NCBI RefSeq assembly: GCF_004310325.1
Contig: NZ_SIRT01000005.1
Coordinates: 1 to 64,000 of the forward strand
Source: Hyunsoonleella flava
GTDB lineage: Bacteria > Bacteroidota > Bacteroidia > Flavobacteriales > Flavobacteriaceae
Length of the DNA stretch: 64,000 nt
Direction of reading: 5' to 3'
Shown here: in pieces, positions 47,961 to 53,470 of the stretch
Numbering within the stretch: the stretch's first letter is position 1
How the letters are laid out: each line of letters begins with the position of its first letter
Notes under the pieces: model-generated
The model's input: the letters and a program-made list of their open reading frames with translations, nothing else
The model's database searches: none
Told to the model about the DNA's origin: nothing
Translations under genes and position numbers: made by a program

Positions 47961-47987
47961 GCGTCCAACATGTTGGACGCTTTTTTT
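47961..47987 (+). terminator. Intrinsic terminator after the TerB gene
   Basis: GCGTCCAACA / TGTTGGACGC, a perfect 10-bp palindrome, followed by seven T. Confidence 0.92.
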
Positions 47988-48257
47988 ATGGCCCATAATA
48001 GGCATTTATTAAAAATAATTGGTTAAAAATTATCAAAAACCGATTAGAAAACGAAAAAAAATTAGTGAAACCGATTTTAAGTGAAAATAATTTGAAACTA
48101 AATTTTAAAAACTAAAATATTAGGCATTGAAGCGTAAGCAACTGGGAGACAAACTTTTGCCGAAATACGTAACTATCTGTTGAAAAACGGACTAGAATTC
48201 CATTACCTAAATTTAATACCAACTACTTGATTTTCAATAAATTAAATTGAATTTTTA

Positions 48258-48290
48258 TTTGGAAGTTTAAAAAATTACACTTTATATTTG
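48258..48290 (+). promoter_or_regulatory. Strong promoter of the leader-TPR-tRNA array unit
   Basis: TTTG at 48258-48261 and TATATTTG at 48283-48290 (21-nt spacer) followed by GCACC. The predicted transcript starts near 48296. A GCAGTT / AACTGC hairpin (48295-48300 with 48311-48316) would be at its 5' end. The stretch from 47988 to 48257 is AT-rich and holds no gene. Confidence 0.75.
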
Positions 48291-48350
48291 CACCGCAGTT
48301 TTAGGTAAACAACTGCTAGAAAAATTTAATATTAACAAAAACAAGAAGTC

Positions 48351-48437
48351 ATGATGAAATATCATATCACATTTCAGGATTGGAGTTGTAACCGCGAGTT
48401 ACTGCTCAGGCTTCGGTGTTTTCTGCCTGCCTACTGA
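48351..48437 (+). CDS. Leader peptide that samples sixteen different amino acids
   Basis: A 28-codon frame, ATG ATG AAA TAT ... TAC TGA, too short for most gene finders. Residues 2-17 are M,K,Y,H,I,T,F,Q,D,W,S,C,N,R,E,L with no repetition. The whole peptide uses 18 of the 20 amino acids (Gly and Val are absent). After residue 17 the sequence becomes Leu/Arg-rich. The codons from 21 on (48411 onward) double as the 5' strand of an antiterminator. Stalling at codons 2-17 would leave that strand free. This is the design of a transcription attenuator that responds to shortage of any of many charged tRNAs. No homolog is known to me. Confidence 0.6.
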   Translation: MMKYHITFQDWSCNRELLLRLRCFLPAY

Positions 48438-48500
48438 TAAGTAGGTAGATTACTTTCCACAGAAAAAATCCGAAGCAGAATAAACTGTTTCGGATTTTTT
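48411..48500 (+). promoter_or_regulatory. Attenuator: antiterminator versus intrinsic terminator
   Basis: Terminator: AAAAAATCCGAA (48463-48474) pairs perfectly with TTCGGATTTTTT (48489-48500), 12 bp. Antiterminator: CTTCGG (48411-48416) and TTTTCTG (48419-48425) pair with 48460-48475, which includes the terminator's 5' arm, so only one structure can form. A CCTACT / AGTAGG hairpin (about 48430-48446) sits in the antiterminator loop and may be a small inserted repeat. The 5' strand lies inside the leader-peptide frame. Confidence 0.7.
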
Positions 48501-48594
48501 ATTTCAAAATTTTTTAAGAATAAATAAATCTGATTGGTTTTAAGAGCGCAAAAGGTGTGCTTTAAAATCAAGTATCATATTAAATAAAACGAAA

Positions 48595-49131
48595 ATGGAA
48601 AATAATTTACATAACAACTATTTGTTTAAAGCTTTAGATGCTTATCCATATGTATTGGAAGAAACCTTAGAGGCATTACACTATGCTTTATCATACAACC
48701 CAAAAGACGCACAAGCGCTTTGTTTAATGGGGCGTGTGTATTCAGAGCAATTAAGTGACTACCAGACTGCTAAACAATATTTCGCAGAAGCTGTGGCTCA
48801 ACATATGGAGATGCCAAAAACGTACCCATTCTACATTCAAACACTATTGTGGAATGATGATTACGATGAGGCTGAAAAGTTAATTGCTTTTGCATTAACC
48901 ATAAAAGGTGTTGACAAAGGATTGATTGAGTTATTACAGGGTATCTTGTTTGAAAAGCAAGATAATTATAAAGCAGCAGTTAAGGCATTTAAAAGTGCTA
49001 ACAAAACAGCAACAAGCAACTGTTTTATTGATTACGTAAATAACGAAATATCTAGAGTGAAAAAGAAAATAAAGCCTAAAAAAAGTAATAGAAAAAAGAG
49101 GAAGTCTAACAAAAAAAGAAAGAGAAAATAA
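48595..49131 (+). CDS. TPR protein with a Lys/Arg-rich C-terminal tail
   Basis: A 178-residue protein. Residues about 15-150 form three to four TPR-like helix pairs (ALHYALSYNPKDAQALCLMGRVYSEQLSDYQTAKQYFAEAV, then WNDDYDEAEKLIAFAL, then ILFEKQDNYKAAVKAFKSA). The last 25 residues contain 18 Lys or Arg, an RNA-binding type of tail. It lies between the attenuator and the tRNA array on the same strand; only 31 nt separate its stop from the first tRNA. A partner role with the array transcripts is inferred. No catalytic motif is seen. The tail is coded by A-runs (A7 near 49111) that could allow slippage. Confidence 0.85.
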   Translation: MENNLHNNYLFKALDAYPYVLEETLEALHYALSYNPKDAQALCLMGRVYSEQLSDYQTAKQYFAEAVAQHMEMPKTYPFYIQTLLWNDDYDEAEKLIAFALTIKGVDKGLIELLQGILFEKQDNYKAAVKAFKSANKTATSNCFIDYVNNEISRVKKKIKPKKSNRKKRKSNKKRKRK

Positions 49132-49132
49132 C

Positions 49133-49159
49133 AAATCGGCAAACATGGTTTGCCGATTT
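49133..49159 (+). promoter_or_regulatory. Perfect 12-bp hairpin between TPR gene and array
   Basis: AAATCGGCAAAC-ATG-GTTTGCCGATTT. Only three T follow, all inside the stem, so it is a weak terminator. It could instead be an RNase III or mRNA-end processing site that separates the TPR mRNA from the tRNA array. Confidence 0.6.
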
Positions 49160-49162
49160 AAT

Positions 49163-49245
49163 GGGAACTCGCTAGTGTTGGAGAGCTAGGTCTGTCTGTA
49201 AAACAGGTGTATTATACAAAGTAGGTTCAAATCCTTCAGTTCCCA
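49163..49245 (+). tRNA. tRNA-Tyr (GTA)
   Basis: Acceptor GGGAACT / AGTTCCC. Anticodon loop CTGTAAA. A long variable arm as in bacterial tRNA-Tyr. T-loop TTCAAAT with one mismatch in its stem. Confidence 0.85.
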
Positions 49246-49253
49246 CTAATATT

Positions 49254-49325
49254 GGTTCATTGGGGTAATGGCTATCCTTCCTGATTGTCTCTCAGGAGAA
49301 ACGAGTTCGATTCTCGTATGAACCG
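49254..49325 (+). tRNA. tRNA-Asp (GTC) with U37
   Basis: Acceptor GGTTCAT / ATGAACC and T-arm ACGAG / CTCGT are perfect. Anticodon stem CCTGA / TCAGG with loop TTGTCTC: the base after the anticodon is T, not the usual purine. The D-arm is G-rich (GGGT / ATCC) and unlike a normal tRNA-Asp. Discriminator G. Confidence 0.72.
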
Positions 49326-49330
49326 CAAAA

Positions 49331-49404
49331 GTACTCTGTGAACAACGCGAATGGTGCTGGGTTCTATAAGAGAAGTATAAGAGGCCATTGGTTTATAGAG
49401 TGCT
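49331..49404 (+). ncRNA. tRNA-sized unit without a T-loop
   Basis: Acceptor-like stem GTACTCT / AGAGTGC (one G-U) encloses 59 nt, the size of a tRNA. A D-like stem GAAC / GTTC has a 17-nt loop. TATA / TATA with a 7-nt loop AGAGAAG lies where the anticodon arm should be, with no U33. There is no TTCRA loop. It is either a decayed tRNA or a tRNA-shaped RNA. Confidence 0.35.
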
Positions 49405-49408
49405 ATTT

Positions 49409-49496
49409 GGAGAGTAGGCAAATATTGGTTTGTTGCGCTTACCTGCTAAGTAAGTTTGCCGTTTTGGTAATGAAGGTTCAATTCCTTTGCTCTCCG
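49409..49496 (+). tRNA. tRNA-Ser (GCT)
   Basis: Acceptor GGAGAGT / GCTCTCC. Anticodon stem CTTAC / GTAAG, loop CTGCTAA. Long variable arm about 17 nt, T-loop TTCAATT, discriminator G as in serine tRNAs. Confidence 0.85.
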
Positions 49497-49506
49497 CAAA
49501 ATTAAT

Positions 49507-49578
49507 GCTCCGTTGGTCAAATGGATAAGACGCTACACTTTCTATGTAGAATTAAGAGTTCGATTCTCTTACGGAGTA
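49507..49578 (+). tRNA. tRNA-Glu (TTC) with U37
   Basis: Acceptor GCTCCGT / ACGGAGT. Anticodon stem CTACA / TGTAG is perfect, loop CTTTCTA: anticodon TTC by position, followed by T at 37. The D-arm (GTC ... GAC) resembles that of Arg or Glu tRNAs. If the loop slipped by one base the anticodon would be TCT (Arg). Confidence 0.7.
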
Positions 49579-49583
49579 CAAAT

Positions 49584-49656
49584 TGAGGCATAACTCAGTG
49601 GTAAGAGTGTCACGTTTACATCGTGAAAGTCATAGGTTCGAATCCTATTGTCTCAA
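49584..49656 (+). tRNA. tRNA-Val (TAC)
   Basis: Acceptor TGAGGCA / TGTCTCA, D-stem CTC / GAG, anticodon stem TCACG / CGTGA with loop TTTACAT, T-arm ATAGG / CCTAT. A canonical cloverleaf. Confidence 0.9.
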
Positions 49657-49661
49657 CACAT

Positions 49662-49734
49662 TGAGGTATAGCTTAATTGTTAAAGCACCGAGCTTTTAAC
49701 TCGGGTGATTTAGGTTCAACTCCTAATACCTCAA
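49662..49734 (+). tRNA. tRNA-Lys (TTT) with an altered D-loop
   Basis: Acceptor TGAGGTA / TACCTCA, anticodon stem CCGAG / CTCGG with loop CTTTTAA, T-arm TTAGG / CCTAA. The D-loop AATTGTTA lacks the G18-G19 pair that docks to the T-loop. Confidence 0.82.
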
Positions 49735-49740
49735 CAATAT

Positions 49741-49813
49741 GCAGGAATGGCGAAATGGCAAACGCACTCGACTTAGAATCGAGAAACTGGGAGTTCGAAT
49801 CTCTCTTCCTGTA
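49741..49813 (+). tRNA. tRNA-Leu (TAG) with a short variable loop
   Basis: Acceptor GCAGGAA / TTCCTGT, anticodon stem CTCGA / TCGAG with loop CTTAGAA, and the GGCGAAATGGCAAACGC D-arm of leucine tRNAs. Leucine tRNAs are class II with a long variable arm; here only 5 nt (AAACT) remain. Confidence 0.75.
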
Positions 49814-49819
49814 CTATTT

Positions 49820-49893
49820 GCTCTACTAGCCCAACTGGAAGAGGCATCGGTTTTAAGCACCGTAAAGTCCAAGTTCGAATCTTGGGGTAAAGG
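49820..49893 (+). tRNA. tRNA-Leu-like (TAA) unit with imperfect acceptor
   Basis: D-arm GCC / GGC, anticodon stem with CGGT / ACCG and loop TTTAAGC, T-arm CCAAG-TTCGAAT-CTTGG. The acceptor GCTCTAC pairs with GTAAAGG at only five of seven positions. Confidence 0.6.
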
Positions 49894-49914
49894 TTCGAGT
49901 CCTTTTAGGTTGTC
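49889..49914 (+). other. Second, orphan T-arm directly after the Leu unit
   Basis: AAAGG-TTCGAGT-CCTTT is a perfect T-arm followed by TAGGTTGTC, but no matching 5' acceptor strand is near. Either a 3' half left by a deletion, or an expanded variable arm. Confidence 0.55.
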
Positions 49915-49921
49915 AAAAAAT

Positions 49922-49994
49922 GGTGTCTTTAGTTTATTTGGTAAAACGCCTCACTGTGAATGAGAAGAACAGGGTTCGAATCCCGAAGTCACCC
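49922..49994 (+). tRNA. tRNA-His (GTG)
   Basis: Anticodon loop CTGTGAA, stem CTCA / TGAG. Acceptor GGTGTCT / AGTCACC has a T-T mismatch, and two T-stem pairs are broken. The discriminator is C as in tRNA-His, but the -1 base is T rather than the G-1 identity element. Confidence 0.75.
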
Positions 49995-50004
49995 CAAATA
50001 GGAA

Positions 50005-50078
50005 GAGTATCTATAGTGTAATGGCTCGCACGGGAGGTATATCCGCCCAGATCAAGTTCGAATCTTGATAGATACTCA
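50005..50078 (+). tRNA. tRNA-like unit with a 9-bp acceptor helix, anticodon uncertain
   Basis: GAGTATCTA pairs perfectly with TAGATACTC, and the T-arm TCAAG-TTCGAAT-CTTGA joins it directly, giving a 14-bp acceptor/T helix instead of 12. One fold of the anticodon arm (GGGAG / CGCCC, one mismatch) gives loop GTATATC with anticodon ATA and U37. Other folds lack U33. Confidence 0.5.
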
Positions 50079-50085
50079 AAACATT

Positions 50086-50158
50086 GGAACAGTAGCAAAG
50101 TTGGTCAATGCACCAGATTGAAGCTCTGGGAATATAGGTTCGAATCCTGTCTGTTCCA
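50086..50158 (+). tRNA. tRNA-Phe (GAA)
   Basis: Acceptor GGAACAG / CTGTTCC, D-stem GCA / TGC, anticodon stem CCAGA / TCTGG with loop TTGAAGC, T-loop TTCGAAT, discriminator A. A canonical cloverleaf. Confidence 0.9.
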
Positions 50159-50163
50159 CTAAA

Positions 50164-50371
50164 TACCTCTTTAGCTTAAAGGGAAGAGCTGCGGAAAAAG
50201 ATTTTGATTCGTTACCGTGGAGTGATAGGATGATGTGGTTGGTGGCGTGCCTGCCAATGACTAGGTTTTGCAAAAGCACCGAAATACACAGGATGTAAAG
50301 TAGGAAAGCGCATTTAGAGCCTATCTGTTCGCGTCCTGCGAAAGTGCCAGTTCGAATCTGGCAAGAGGCAC
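50164..50371 (+). tRNA. tRNA split by about 140 nt in the anticodon loop
   Basis: 5' half: acceptor TACCTCT, D-stem AGCT / AGCT with GGG in the loop, anticodon strand GCGGA (50191-50195). 3' half: TCC-T-GC (50334-50339), T-arm TGCCAG-TTCGAATC-TGGCA, acceptor AGAGGCA (six of seven pairs). The insert (about 50196-50333) has hairpins such as TTTTGCAAAA but no group I or II intron core that I can see. Confidence 0.5.
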
Positions 50372-50373
50372 AA

Positions 50374-50503
50374 CACTCTTAAAAAGAGAATCCTGCTTTT
50401 GCAGGAAATAGTATCAAGCTGGTCTTGTTGGGTGTTTCAGTATAGCACTATTGCATAAAACGTTGCAGGGATGCATGATGGTTTTATGTTCAACTAGACT
50501 TGG
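50374..50503 (+). ncRNA. Structured element within the array
   Basis: Hairpins CTCTT / AAGAG and TCCTGC / GCAGGA come first. Then GGTCTTGTTG (50421-50430) pairs with CAACTAGACT (50491-50500) in an acceptor-like helix enclosing a GTG / CAC arm and a perfect CATAAAAC / GTTTTATG helix (50454-50461 with 50481-50488), with an inner TGCA / TGCA hairpin. No T-loop. It is tRNA-sized but not a tRNA. Confidence 0.4.
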
Positions 50504-50537
50504 AGGTTTTAACTGTTTACCAAAAAATAGTCTCGAC

Positions 50538-50605
50538 TCAATAGGTCGTGGGTTCGATTCCCACTCACGCTACGGCGTGATAGTTCAGTAGGTTAGAACA
50601 ATTGA
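50538..50605 (+). other. Permuted tRNA unit 1 (3' half before 5' half)
   Basis: In order: anticodon 3' strand TCAAT (50538-50542), 5-nt variable loop, T-arm GTGGG-TTCGATT-CCCAC, acceptor 3' TCACGCT (50565-50571), AC, acceptor 5' GGCGTGA (50574-50580), TA, D-arm GTTC-AGTAGGTTA-GAAC, A26, anticodon 5' strand ATTGA (50601-50605). Acceptor and anticodon stems pair with exact tRNA spacing. The anticodon itself lies at the open ends and cannot be read. Confidence 0.5.
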
Positions 50606-50611
50606 TTTTTT

Positions 50612-50697
50612 GGATAGCGCAGGTTCGAATCCTGCCGAGGTCACCAAAAATTGGATCTCGTAGCTCAGTAGGTTAGAGCACTACACTCATAATGTAG
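50612..50697 (+). other. Permuted tRNA unit 2, anticodon CAT
   Basis: 3' part first: T-arm GCAGG-TTCGAAT-CCTGC and acceptor CGAGGTC (50636-50642) followed by ACCA. Then acceptor 5' GATCTCG (50654-50660), TA, D-arm GCTC-AGTAGGTTA-GAGC, and a complete anticodon arm CTACA-CTCATAA-TGTAG (50681-50697). The linear 3' side (GGG / CCC with loop TTTTTAA) has no acceptor match. A Met or Ile2-type tRNA in permuted order, joint in the variable loop. Confidence 0.5.
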
Positions 50698-50699
50698 GT

Positions 50700-51040
50700 T
50701 AATGGGTTTTTAACCCTCCCCCACCAAAGCTTATCATCTTGTAAAACTGATAGCCAACGCAGTTCGCTACACTGCTCAACAAAAACAGGGCGAAAACAGT
50801 TGGATTGTAAGTCGGCTTTTGTGCCCCAATGGAAGCAATCTGAAACGCACTTTGAAATACTGATTTTTAATTGTTATATCTAATTACTGTTTTGTTTTCA
50901 GGATATAAAACGTCGTATCTTAATGGAGATATAATCTTTTACTTCCACACTACATCACACTAGTTATTGAGGCTTTTAATATGAGTATTTCCGTGTGTAA
51001 CAGATGACTTTCAATCTGCTGTTTTTAAGACGATAATTCC
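50700..51040 (+). other. Decayed end of the array and empty stretch
   Basis: 50703-50720 is a GGGTT / AACCC hairpin. 50731-50776 has tRNA-Thr-like scraps (TATCA / TGATA around CTTGTAA, then GCAGT / ACTGC). 50788-50826 is a GGGC-AAAA / TTTT-GCCC hairpin. From about 50830 to 51040 I see no gene or clear structure. Confidence 0.35.
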
Positions 51041-51134
51041 GCGTTAGGGATAGAAGTGGTTAGCTTTTGGCGAGGCGAGCATCGAGCCAAAACTATTGAA
51101 CGGATAGCCCGACCCCTTGTGGGTAACGCCCAAA
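51041..51134 (+). repeat. Dispersed flavobacterial intergenic repeat, copy 4
   Basis: GCGTTAGGGAT start, TAGCTTTTGG, GGATAGCCCGACCCCTTG and GTGGGTAACGCCCAA end. It lies between the array and the slipin gene. A GTAAC / GTTAC hairpin follows at about 51180-51196. Confidence 0.78.
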
Positions 51135-51255
51135 ATAGATTTAAAATTCAGCATTTACTCGGTGTTGTGTTTTAAATATGGTAACCCTTCCGTTACAGGT
51201 TTTACCGCGCCTTAGTTGGCAAAAAATAATTGAATAATTTAAAAAGTAAGAAACA

Positions 51256-52353
51256 ATGAAACGAGTAAGAATTAATGCAGGAAAAGTGGGTTTGGTTTTC
51301 AAAGGCGGTAACTACAAACGTGTAATTACCGAGGGAAAACATTGGATAGGTTTTAACCAGCGTGTATTGGTGTATAGCTTAGAAAATGCCTTTGCTACAC
51401 CTATTGCTCTAGAACTCTTACTACAAGACGAAACGTTGGCCAAAATGCTTGATGTTATTGAGGTAAAAGACAGTGAATTGGTTTTAGTTTTCGAAAACGG
51501 AAACTTTAAAACCGTATTGTCTGCGGGACGTTACGTGTACTGGAAGGGTTTGATTGATCGTGAATTTACAATAGTAGATTTAAGCAAAATTGATATTACT
51601 GAAGATATCGACAAGGCGTTGTTCAGCAAATATGATTTGAGCAAACACATCCGCACCTTTGAGGTGGCCGCTTACGAAAAGGCGGTGCTCTTGGTAGACG
51701 ATGTGTACACCAAAACACTTAGCGGTGGTACGTACCGTTTCTGGAGAAACGACACAACTATTAAAATCGCTAAGGTAGATACACGTCAATTGCAACTGGA
51801 AATTGCTGGACAAGAATTGTTAACTAAAGACAAAGCGGCTATCCGTATCAACTTTTACACACAGTACAAAGTAACCGATATTGAAACCGCTTTACTAGAA
51901 AACAAGGACTACGAAAAGCAATTGTACATTACTATGCAATTGGTGTTGCGTGCCTATGTTGGTGCTTACACTTTGGATGAACTTTTAGAGCGTAAAGAAA
52001 ACATTGCAGATGCCGTGTTTAACGACGTAAAAACAAGCGCAACCAAATTGGGTGTAACCGTGCTTACTTGCGGTATTCGAGATGTTATTTTAACGGGTGA
52101 TATGAAAGATATCATGAACCAAGTTTTAGTAGCACAAAAGAAAGCGCAGGCCAACACCATTACCCGTCGTGAGGAAACAGCCTCTACCCGTAGCTTGCTA
52201 AACACGGCAAAGTTAATGGAAGAGAACCACATGCTGTACAAGCTAAAAGAGATGGAGTATGTTGAAAAAATCGCCGATAAGATTGGTGAAATCACGGTGG
52301 CTGGTAATGGCGGTATTGTAACACAATTAAAGGAGATTTTCTCTGGAAATTAA
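51256..52353 (+). CDS. Slipin (SPFH/Band 7) protein beside the tRNA array
   Basis: A 365-residue SPFH protein. The SPFH domain spans about 125-300 (VLLVDDVYTKTLSGGTYRFWRNDTTIKIAKVDTRQLQLEIAGQELLTKDKAAIRINFYTQYKV). No membrane hairpin precedes it, so it is likely soluble or peripheral. The N-terminal 170 residues contain three copies of one beta motif (GLVFKGGNYKRVITEGKHWI, LVLVFENGNFKTVLSAGRYVYW, AVLLVDDVYTKTLSGGTYRFW). Slipins of this type are recurrent neighbours of RtcB RNA ligase, Ro60 and tRNA-like Y RNAs in Proteobacteria. RtcB is not in this window. A joint role with the array is inferred from position. Confidence 0.85.
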   Translation: MKRVRINAGKVGLVFKGGNYKRVITEGKHWIGFNQRVLVYSLENAFATPIALELLLQDETLAKMLDVIEVKDSELVLVFENGNFKTVLSAGRYVYWKGLIDREFTIVDLSKIDITEDIDKALFSKYDLSKHIRTFEVAAYEKAVLLVDDVYTKTLSGGTYRFWRNDTTIKIAKVDTRQLQLEIAGQELLTKDKAAIRINFYTQYKVTDIETALLENKDYEKQLYITMQLVLRAYVGAYTLDELLERKENIADAVFNDVKTSATKLGVTVLTCGIRDVILTGDMKDIMNQVLVAQKKAQANTITRREETASTRSLLNTAKLMEENHMLYKLKEMEYVEKIADKIGEITVAGNGGIVTQLKEIFSGN

Positions 52354-52362
52354 ATAGGTGTT

Positions 52363-52527
52363 TTGGGCGTAACCCCGCCGGAAAAAGGCGGGGTCGCGCT
52401 TTACGCTATATCTTTTTAAAATGGCATTGCAAGGACGAAGGACGTGGTAATCTGCCAAATTCCAGTTCTGCACAAAGTAAGTGCTAACCCATTTTTAAAA
52501 AGGATGCCGCTGCAATCGCTTACGCGG
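52363..52527 (-). repeat. Dispersed repeat copy 5, interrupted by a second repeat
   Basis: Minus-strand copy: GGGCGTAACCCCGCC at one end and ATGCCGCTGCAATC with GCTTACGC at the other. The middle holds about 80 nt of a different repeat (ATTGCAAGGACGAAGGACG, then GTGGTAATCTG), so one repeat seems to have entered another. Confidence 0.65.
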
Positions 52528-52591
52528 GTGAAGGAATATTTTCAAAGAAAGCGTTAAGAATGCTATATTGTAAATAAAAAGTCGATTTAGG

Positions 52592-53470
52592 ATGAGTAAA
52601 AGTGAGTTTATTATCAAACTGTTAGCGAAAAAGGATCAATTGCTTTCAAATTATCAATATCAAAAAACTGTTTTAATAGATTTGATAAAAATTGGGTTCA
52701 AGTATGTAGATGAACATTTTAAGAATGAAGAAAACAAATTTGCTAATATGATGCTACAAATGTCATTGCTAAAGGCAAATTCAATTCTTCAATTAGCTGA
52801 AGGAACTACAATTTTTGGTACTTCAAAAATGGAGATCCCCTTAATTGATATTCAATCTCAATCAAGCATCTTTCGATCTTTATTTGAAAATTATTGCTTT
52901 TTTAATCACTTATATATTCATGAATGGAACAATGAAGAATTTCTTGTTTTAGAAAACATATGGAAAATAACCTCATTAACTCAAAGGTTTGAACTTCTTA
53001 AAGAAAGTACAAATAGTTTGAGTTCAGATAACAAGAAAAAAATAGACACCGAAAAAGAGTTTGTTTCTCAAATGACCAAAGAAATAAAAGGAACATCAAT
53101 TTATGCTAAAAACAAAAAAGCGATAGACAATTATATAAAAAGAAATAGATGGCAATTAACAATTAATGATAAAAGAATTCAAAGTATTTCTTGGAAAGAT
53201 ATGTTTGAAAACTCGCAGAAAAATAAAGGTAGACAAAATCGAACCTATCAAATGTTTTCTTTAGATAGTCATCCCTCTTATTTTTCAGTTTTCCAGTTTG
53301 GAGATTTATATAAAAACAGGCATGATTTAGAAAGAAAAACAACATTAATGTATCAGACAATTGAAATGCTTTGTAATTATCTATTCGACTTTAAAACACT
53401 GTTGAAAAATGAAATTGATATTGACATTGAAACAAAATACCTAGTAGAAATATTAGGAAAAGACAACTAA
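52592..53470 (+). CDS. DUF5677-like helical protein
   Basis: A 292-residue, all-helical, Lys-rich protein. The segments SSIFRSLFENYCFFNHLYI and LDSHPSYFSVFQFGDLY resemble DUF5677 (tentative), a family of unknown function with conserved Arg, Glu and His. Its low GC (long A runs) is below that of the slipin and kinase genes around it, which may indicate transfer. It lies after the slipin gene on the same strand. Confidence 0.65.
   Translation: MSKSEFIIKLLAKKDQLLSNYQYQKTVLIDLIKIGFKYVDEHFKNEENKFANMMLQMSLLKANSILQLAEGTTIFGTSKMEIPLIDIQSQSSIFRSLFENYCFFNHLYIHEWNNEEFLVLENIWKITSLTQRFELLKESTNSLSSDNKKKIDTEKEFVSQMTKEIKGTSIYAKNKKAIDNYIKRNRWQLTINDKRIQSISWKDMFENSQKNKGRQNRTYQMFSLDSHPSYFSVFQFGDLYKNRHDLERKTTLMYQTIEMLCNYLFDFKTLLKNEIDIDIETKYLVEILGKDN

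Follow-up and report, generated by a model that had tools for sequence, protein, structure and literature searches.

A residue-diverse leader peptide and a candidate polyspecific attenuator upstream of a reserve tRNA array in Hyunsoonleella flava

The DNA analysed here is a 64,000 nt stretch of Hyunsoonleella flava (positions 1 to 64,000 of contig NZ_SIRT01000005.1; hereafter the window). On its forward strand lie, in order, a promoter, a short leader open reading frame (ORF), a transcription attenuator, a gene for a tetratricopeptide repeat (TPR) protein, a tRNA array, a region of structured RNAs (50165-50710) and a slipin gene (Table 1). The original prediction, made by a model that saw only the sequence, had described the promoter, a 28-codon leader, a competing antiterminator and terminator, the TPR gene with its Lys/Arg-rich tail, and the slipin gene. 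All were found where it had placed them, as were the 31 nt between the TPR stop codon and the first tRNA. We also checked whether the gene order is conserved. The succession of leader, TPR gene, array and slipin recurs across many genera, with parts missing from some loci.

Table 1. Features of the locus, in window coordinates.
Feature	Position	Strand	Details
Promoter	48259..48290	+	TTGG 48259-48262; 20-nt spacer; TATATTTG 48283-48290
Leader ORF, class B, 28 codons	48351..48437	+	ATG 48351 to stop; peptide MMKYHITFQDWSCNRELLLRLRCFLPAY
Hairpin within leader	48388..48402	+	GTAAC..GTTAC; antiterminator-compatible; z-score -1.1
Antiterminator	48410..48476	+	arm 48410-48425 pairs with 48460-48476
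Intrinsic terminator	48468..48504	+	ATCCGAAGCAG..CTGTTTCGGAT and T-run; stem 48468-48495
TPR protein gene, Lys/Arg-rich tail	48595..49131	+	AlphaFold2 mean pLDDT (predicted local distance difference test) 89
Hairpin between TPR gene and array	49133..49159	+	AAATCGGCAAAC..GTTTGCCGATTT; no U-run; similar in several of 20 relatives
tRNA array	49163..50159	+	11 tRNAs by ARAGORN: Tyr, Asp, Ser, Glu, Val, Lys, Leu(tag), Leu(taa, fusion), His, 'ata', Phe
tRNA-like RNA with ~140-nt insert	50165..50372	+	acceptor CCTCTT/AAGAGG; D and T arms; insert conserved
Y RNA-like RNA	50411..50680	+	two YrlA matches, 50520-50616 and 50618-50679, neither reaching the Rfam gathering score; tRNA modules circularly permuted
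Slipin (SPFH/Band 7)	51256..52353	+	Band_7, E 2e-28, 100 bits, cut-off 23.6
292-residue ORF	52592-53470		no Pfam or NCBIfam match; occupies the site of RtcB in locus L127

Comparisons drew on a family set of 299 genomes, a phylum set of 395 genomes, and the best 80 of 539 named relatives, 67 of which had about 8 kb of sequence 5' of the slipin gene. We take the genera of the named relatives to be Flavobacteriaceae; one is placed only as Flavobacteriales and one only as Bacteroidia. Individual loci are numbered with the prefix L. Some genomes of the named set also contribute to the other loci, so these sets overlap. RNA between array and slipin was compared by BLAST across 112 loci, with some genomes counted twice. 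Slipin orthologues were defined as full-length with at least 50% identity.

The attenuator of the window belongs to a type that we call class B. It comprises a run of diverse residues, a CTTCGG arm, a stop codon and then a terminator, and the 5' arm of the terminator can pair either with the leader arm or with its own 3' arm. A search pattern made of the two arms and the terminator matched 26 of the 299 family genomes, at one place in each, while the reversed pattern, used as a control, matched none. In the H. flava genome the single match is the window site, and five of the 12 genomes of the same genus have a match. The geometry was measured for 35 attenuators at 34 loci. Start codon and arm are separated by 59 nt (22 cases), 56 nt (11), 47 nt (1) or 74 nt (1); a start at 59 or 56 nt was taken by preference, and starts at the named loci were restricted to the frame and spacings already seen. 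In an unforced listing of all ATG ORFs across the arm, each of 33 places had an ORF at one of the spacings used and three also had one in another frame. The stop codon ends 9-27 nt past the arm start, and the terminator arm begins 20-32 nt 3' of the stop. The core pairs are invariant because the search pattern requires them. Outside the core, arms pair better with their own partner (-4.99 kcal/mol) than with swapped partners (-3.24 kcal/mol; 0/5000 permutations). The element has the leader ORF, the mutually exclusive antiterminator and terminator, and the stop codon spacing of an attenuator. A small hairpin also lies within the leaders (mean z-score -1.9 across 35).

Folding indicates how ribosome position could set the outcome. 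For nascent window RNA ending at 48480, the predicted antiterminator probability was 0.98-0.99 when the codon in the ribosomal A site was codon 16 or earlier, 0.13 at codon 17, and 0 from codon 18. With a ribosome at the stop codon, the terminator formed in 35 of 35 class B attenuators.

The codons at which a stalled ribosome would leave the arm free encode an unusually varied peptide. In the window, codons 2-16 read MKYHITFQDWSCNRE, which is 15 different residues; the chance of this is 1.35e-4 under local proteome composition. Relatives of the same genus have LKHYIAFQDWSCNPE at these codons. There are five differences from the window, including a His/Tyr exchange, and all 15 residues are distinct in both versions; among four relatives, one has 14 of 15. 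We took 29 representatives with less than 45% identity from 71 distinct leader DNAs and counted the residues preceding the arm (15-24 per leader, mostly 18-19). On average 13.45 were distinct, against 11.61 (standard deviation (sd) 0.26) for the background and 11.71 (sd 0.23) when residues were re-dealt among the same leaders; under either model, none of 5000 trials reached the observed mean. At least 14 distinct residues occurred in 59% of 22 leaders, compared with 7.6% of internal 19-mers of long ORFs. Each leader was then divided at the final codon at which a stall would not yet cover the arm, assuming a footprint of 13 nt. The sensing codons had 11.28 distinct residues against 9.63 expected (sd 0.23; z 7.1), whereas the tail gave z 0.7.

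Relatives carry a second type of attenuator, class A, which differs in sequence (terminator GCGTCC..GGACGC, arm GGACG) and is located 5' of class B or immediately ahead of the array. The pattern occurs in 10 of the 299 family genomes (control 0). It has no match in the H. flava genome; a GCGTCC hairpin at window position 47961 comes directly after the terB stop codon. In two class A genomes examined that have no slipin orthologue, a TPR gene lies downstream. Leaders of about 36 codons were assigned to 61 of 90 such terminators, giving 56 distinct peptides, and for the diversity test they were picked solely by promoter position. All 20 amino acids are present in 14 of the 56 and at least 19 in 29; for 38-residue windows of long ORFs (n=5288) the corresponding figures are 0.09% and 1.0%. 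Nineteen representatives averaged 17.7 distinct residues, compared with 15.7 (sd 0.31) and 16.0 (sd 0.27) in the two null models (0/4000 each). In a generic scan of the 80 loci, at least 19 different residues were present in 10 of the 21 candidate ORFs that share the slipin strand and in none of the six on the opposite strand. The ATG is 7-9 nt after the promoter TTTG in 51 of the 56 (3-12 nt was allowed), which makes nearly leaderless transcripts probable. By eye, and unscored, the boxA-like sequence TTCATTGACATACTGAAA or something similar was seen 5' of the first tRNA in some class A arrays (L054, L157, L159).

The original prediction held that loss of any of many charged tRNAs would open transcription. 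Sensing of this kind is supported by a residue diversity that exceeds expectation in the sensing codons only, and by the leaders of relatives that have all 20 amino acids. We conclude that the leader is probably a polyspecific transcription attenuator that reports on the elongation capacity of ribosomes and switches on reserve tRNAs, together with RNA repair in relatives.

The genes downstream recur with the attenuator. Slipin orthologues were found in 28 of the 299 family genomes, that of H. flava included. Upstream of the slipin and on its strand, 24 of the 28 have a TPR homologue and 24 have at least one tRNA by ARAGORN. The 67 named loci include 54 with the TPR gene and 43 with an attenuator and leader, the TPR gene being downstream in every one of the latter; at least one tRNA is present in 56 and at least three in 38. 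All 428 tRNAs found 5' of the slipin at these loci are on its strand, none on the opposite one. At least three tRNAs occur without a TPR gene at 12 loci. In all 26 class B genomes the TPR gene is downstream of the attenuator, either immediately or within an operon that also encodes RtcB, PrfH or both; in L094 the first gene after the class B attenuator is PcfJ-like. Among 52 distinct TPR relatives, 42 have at least 11 Lys or Arg among their last 25 residues. A fold search with the TPR model returned only generic TPR proteins, and no NCBIfam model scored above its cut-off for the slipin. In the phylum set 20 of 395 genomes have the slipin, other families included. Some of 12 slipin loci examined from this set have upstream tRNAs, but none has a class B attenuator or TPR gene. 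In five genomes (L058-L062) only C-terminal slipin pieces were seen, which are perhaps decayed loci. Loci L089 and L091 have flanks like those of the window (terB upstream, kinase downstream) with the attenuator and TPR gene, and no recognised array or slipin.

RNA-repair genes are frequent in the same loci. RtcB is encoded on the slipin strand in 42 of the 67 named loci, upstream in 27 and within 4 kb downstream in 15. The attenuator precedes RtcB in four loci with PrfH, and two more have a variant arm. Pfam confirmed RtcB in two loci; in a third, NCBIfam RtcB models were below cut-off and PrfH was above its own. In L127, a close relative (Jejuia sp.), the flanks are those of the window; there are 15 tRNAs, and RtcB lies between the slipin and the flanking kinase.

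The attenuator might instead respond mainly to any slow ribosome, whether damaged or drug-bound, with residue diversity merely avoiding reliance on one amino acid. The presence of PrfH in 27 of the 67 loci fits such a sensor. So do the protection of an E. coli strain by an RtcB2-PrfH operon against colicin E3, which cuts 16S rRNA (PMC9223846), and the induction of an Anabaena tRNA operon by antibiotics that target translation (PMC10272220). A pure ribosome sensor requires no residue diversity, yet an excess of 7 sd is found, and only in the sensing codons. Class A leaders also retain rare residues, with Cys in 90% and His in 100% (n=50, a set pre-selected for diversity). On these grounds we consider a sensor chiefly of slow ribosomes possible but doubtful.

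The array supplies tRNAs in addition to a complete set. Outside it the H. flava genome has 35 housekeeping tRNA genes, which cover all 20 amino acids with most anticodons in single copy, and array tRNAs are only 56-66% identical to the housekeeping tRNA with the same anticodon (ten compared; the 'ata' tRNA has no counterpart). The extra set is distinct from the housekeeping set. The Leu(taa) unit has two T arms and resembles a fusion. Across the 67 loci, the array tRNAs include none for Ala or Thr, two for Gly and six for Val. The 'ata' tRNA (window 50007-50077) has the anticodon loop GTATATC, with anticodon AUA and U37, as well as U73. Similar tRNAs were seen in L031, L052, L127 and L133-L136, with U73 in 7 of 7.

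The array could also consist of decoys, tRNA-like RNAs that absorb anticodon nucleases or bind slipin or TPR protein. The divergence and partial decay of the array tRNAs, and the Y RNA-like tRNA mimic adjoining the array, would suit this role. In array groups of at least five members (496 of 510 tRNAs), acceptor stems form 6.56 of 7 pairs with their own partner and 5.58 when partners are swapped. Discriminators mostly fit identity (Asp G 42/43, Lys A 32/32, Cys U 32/32, His C 25/25, Pro A 18/18) and are mixed in the Gln, Arg, Tyr and Ser(gct) groups. Both the covariation and the fit of discriminators argue against decoys. Position 37 was compared with the housekeeping tRNAs of the H. flava genome only, where it is a purine in 35 of 35. 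In the array, this position is U in 42 of 43 Asp tRNAs and in all 36 Glu tRNAs, and the types whose housekeeping tRNAs have G37 (Leu tag, Gln, His, Arg acg, Pro) show A37 in 135 of 145 array copies. These changes are not independent events because array tRNAs share descent. Decoys should retain the nuclease target, whereas several loops differ here; those of Tyr and Lys, and mostly those of Cys, Ser, Trp and Asn, match housekeeping tRNAs at this position, as a decoy would. The original prediction had left open replacement or decoy tRNAs. Features of tRNA identity favour replacement, and we regard the decoy role as improbable. To judge from their sequences, the array tRNAs are divergent but probably competent for charging.

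The prediction had also counted about 16 tRNA or tRNA-like units. Eleven are tRNAs by ARAGORN, and those of the 50165-50710 region are not simply degenerate tRNAs. BLAST of 50160-51256 gave matches in 104 of 112 loci, of which 100 matched the part 50412-50572; the tRNA-like RNA with insert was found in 30 of the 112. The Y RNA-like motif occurs once in each of 73 of the 80 named loci. Its best window match to YrlA (50520-50616) scored 43.9 bits (E 3e-8), below the gathering score of 69. Of 16 other loci, 14 matched YrlA with E no higher than 0.01, none reaching the gathering score. The acceptor stem is permuted, so that the upstream 3' half pairs with the downstream 5' half. In 68 of 74 sequences that could be parsed (39 distinct), this stem forms 6.0 of 7 pairs with its own partner, 3.5 with swapped partners and 2.9 with the conventional partner (0/5000 permutations). 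We rejected plain decayed tRNAs as the identity of the 3' units, whose acceptor stems pair poorly in the conventional way. A search for Ro/TROVE gave no match in the H. flava genome (control: matches in 1/14). Flavo-1 RNA (RF01705) flanks the slipin at 51033-51118 (+) and 52388-52533 (-), one match being below and the other above the gathering score, and was also seen near the slipin in several relatives.

GOLLD RNA lies 5' of the Y RNA-like RNA, adjoining the array, at some loci. The covariance model identified it in six (2 of 16 short loci and 4 of 4 others) at 117-130 bits, below the gathering score of 150, and a profile built from these six found it in 13 of the 80. In the window region there was no covariance model match, and the profile reached 17 bits, inside a tRNA. 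A phage-derived tRNA island, serving codon supply or carried as cargo beneath an unrelated leader, is very improbable: GOLLD at 13 loci would fit it, being known from phages and tRNA islands (PMC12286853), as would the altered anticodon loops seen in phage tRNAs too (PMC10264068), but the slipin has no match among 50,697 phage records at E 1e-5, the order and the same attenuator are conserved across genera, and the housekeeping tRNAs of H. flava already cover 20 amino acids. Plasmid matches of the slipin are all below 60% identity.

Returning to the polyspecific attenuator, we propose the following sequence of events. With charged tRNAs and healthy ribosomes, the leader ribosome would reach the stop codon and cover the arm, and the terminator would form. 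A stall within the first ~16 codons, because any of 15 charged amino acids is missing or because the ribosome is damaged, would allow the antiterminator to form first. Read-through would then yield the TPR protein, the reserve tRNAs, the Y RNA-like RNA and slipin and, in relatives, RtcB and PrfH. The reserve tRNAs would bring decoding back during the repair or removal of damaged RNAs. Those with altered anticodon loops may be poor nuclease substrates; for phage tRNAs with altered loops, evasion of anticodon nucleases has been proposed (PMC10264068). We infer that transcription is shared across the operon and is induced by tRNA loss. Our guess is that the TPR protein binds RNA and that slipin is a membrane scaffold. 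The connection to reserve tRNAs, RtcB and PrfH suggests defence against toxins or phage-response nucleases that cut tRNA or rRNA. The natural trigger may be lost charging, cut tRNA or damaged ribosomes.

Several results weigh against this proposal. Once the terminator 3' arm is present, the terminator is the preferred equilibrium fold of the window RNA for each of the stall positions tested, and the antiterminator is not above the terminator in 23 of the 35 class B attenuators (above in 12). A simple equilibrium switch is thus ruled out for the window, and antitermination would have to be kinetic, as in classical attenuators. Single leaders vary, with only nine distinct residues in two of 35, and that of the window has no Gly or Val, and has Pro and Ala only past the sensing codons. 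The leader tests are not fully independent, even at less than 45% identity, because leaders share descent. Substitutions between related leaders at codon positions 1, 2 and 3 number 588, 395 and 594, with no excess of third over first positions, so coding constraint is not demonstrated through a synonymous excess. The residue content of leaders is not significantly correlated with the composition of the arrays (Spearman 0.27, p 0.25), which led us to reject a correspondence between a leader and the array of its own system. The strict promoter pattern was found in just two of 24 loci, no recognised tRNA is present in 11 of the 67, and 11 have a TPR gene without a recognised attenuator. RtcB lies upstream of the attenuator in some loci (L143, L145). 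The predicted link between slipin and RNA repair stands for relatives, where RtcB and PrfH share the locus, and does not extend to the H. flava genome, which gave 0 RtcB matches (control: matches in 9/14).

The window promoter is presumably of the Bacteroidota -33/-7 type. Immediately 5' of it, at 48155-48200, is a conserved stretch TATCTGTTGAAAAACGGACAGG..TTCTATGC, also seen in L032, L034, L036, L043 and L051 (by eye, unscored), which is possibly an activator or RNA element. Two loci (L049, L055) have a divergent gene 5' of the operon whose protein begins MAVNKNALxRYKTIDKCLQN; we take the product to resemble a WYL-type regulator.

On balance, we favour a broader view in which such 'pangram' leaders of Bacteroidota act as universal sensors of aminoacyl-tRNA supply. 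They would exist as two independent sequence classes, maybe in series, and would switch on a translation emergency operon that comprises reserve tRNAs whose anticodon loops are partly altered, Y RNA-like RNA, in some cases GOLLD RNA, and RtcB, PrfH, TPR protein and slipin. A leader of maximal diversity would detect translation failure in general with just a ribosome and an RNA hairpin, and would serve as a ready-made reporter for global tRNA charging. GOLLD would gain a defined physiological context, and the roles of bacterial tRNA arrays, slipins, Y RNAs and GOLLD would become testable in culturable marine bacteria.

Attenuators of the trp, his and ilv type have a leader ORF, a competing antiterminator and terminator, and a stop codon that lets the finishing ribosome mask the arm, all of which recur here. 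Known leader-peptide attenuators answer to one or few (one to three) amino acids. By contrast, repeats are avoided in the leaders described here, which span as many as 15-20 amino acids, and the proposed targets are tRNAs and RNA-repair genes rather than biosynthesis. The whiB7/wblC upstream ORF attenuators of Actinobacteria likewise use a leader ORF for general translation stress, but control a transcription factor gene and have no tRNA array. We know of no earlier attenuator that computes 'any charged tRNA missing'; if our reading is true, this would be the first known to us. A literature search by title and abstract start, with most subscription papers outside its reach, found no description of this system.

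The Anabaena trn operon is a silent reserve tRNA array, induced by translational stress and repressed by TrcR; in a TrcR mutant, rtcB and a slipin gene are also up (PMC10272220). It shares a reserve array with our locus, as well as an association with slipin and, as in relatives, with rtcB. It differs in using a DNA-binding repressor and in having trn on a plasmid and rtcB on the chromosome, and the text seen describes no leader-peptide attenuator. Arrays with GOLLD in phages and mycobacteria (PMC12286853) resemble those relatives in which the array adjoins GOLLD, and phage tRNAs share altered anticodon loops with the array tRNAs. Here, however, the array is tied to slipin, RtcB, PrfH and polyspecific attenuators, and the window is without GOLLD. 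The rtcB2-prfH system (PMC9223846) has RtcB, PrfH and a Y RNA-like tRNA mimic in common with our loci. There, RtcR is activated by binding tRNA fragments, whereas here control would be by attenuation, and neither RtcB nor Ro was matched in the H. flava genome. A slipin gene adjoins rtcR in one Citrobacter plasmid record. Repair operons controlled by RtcR are among the closest precedents (PMC7790460). Compared with these and with Anabaena trn, the difference is the sensor.

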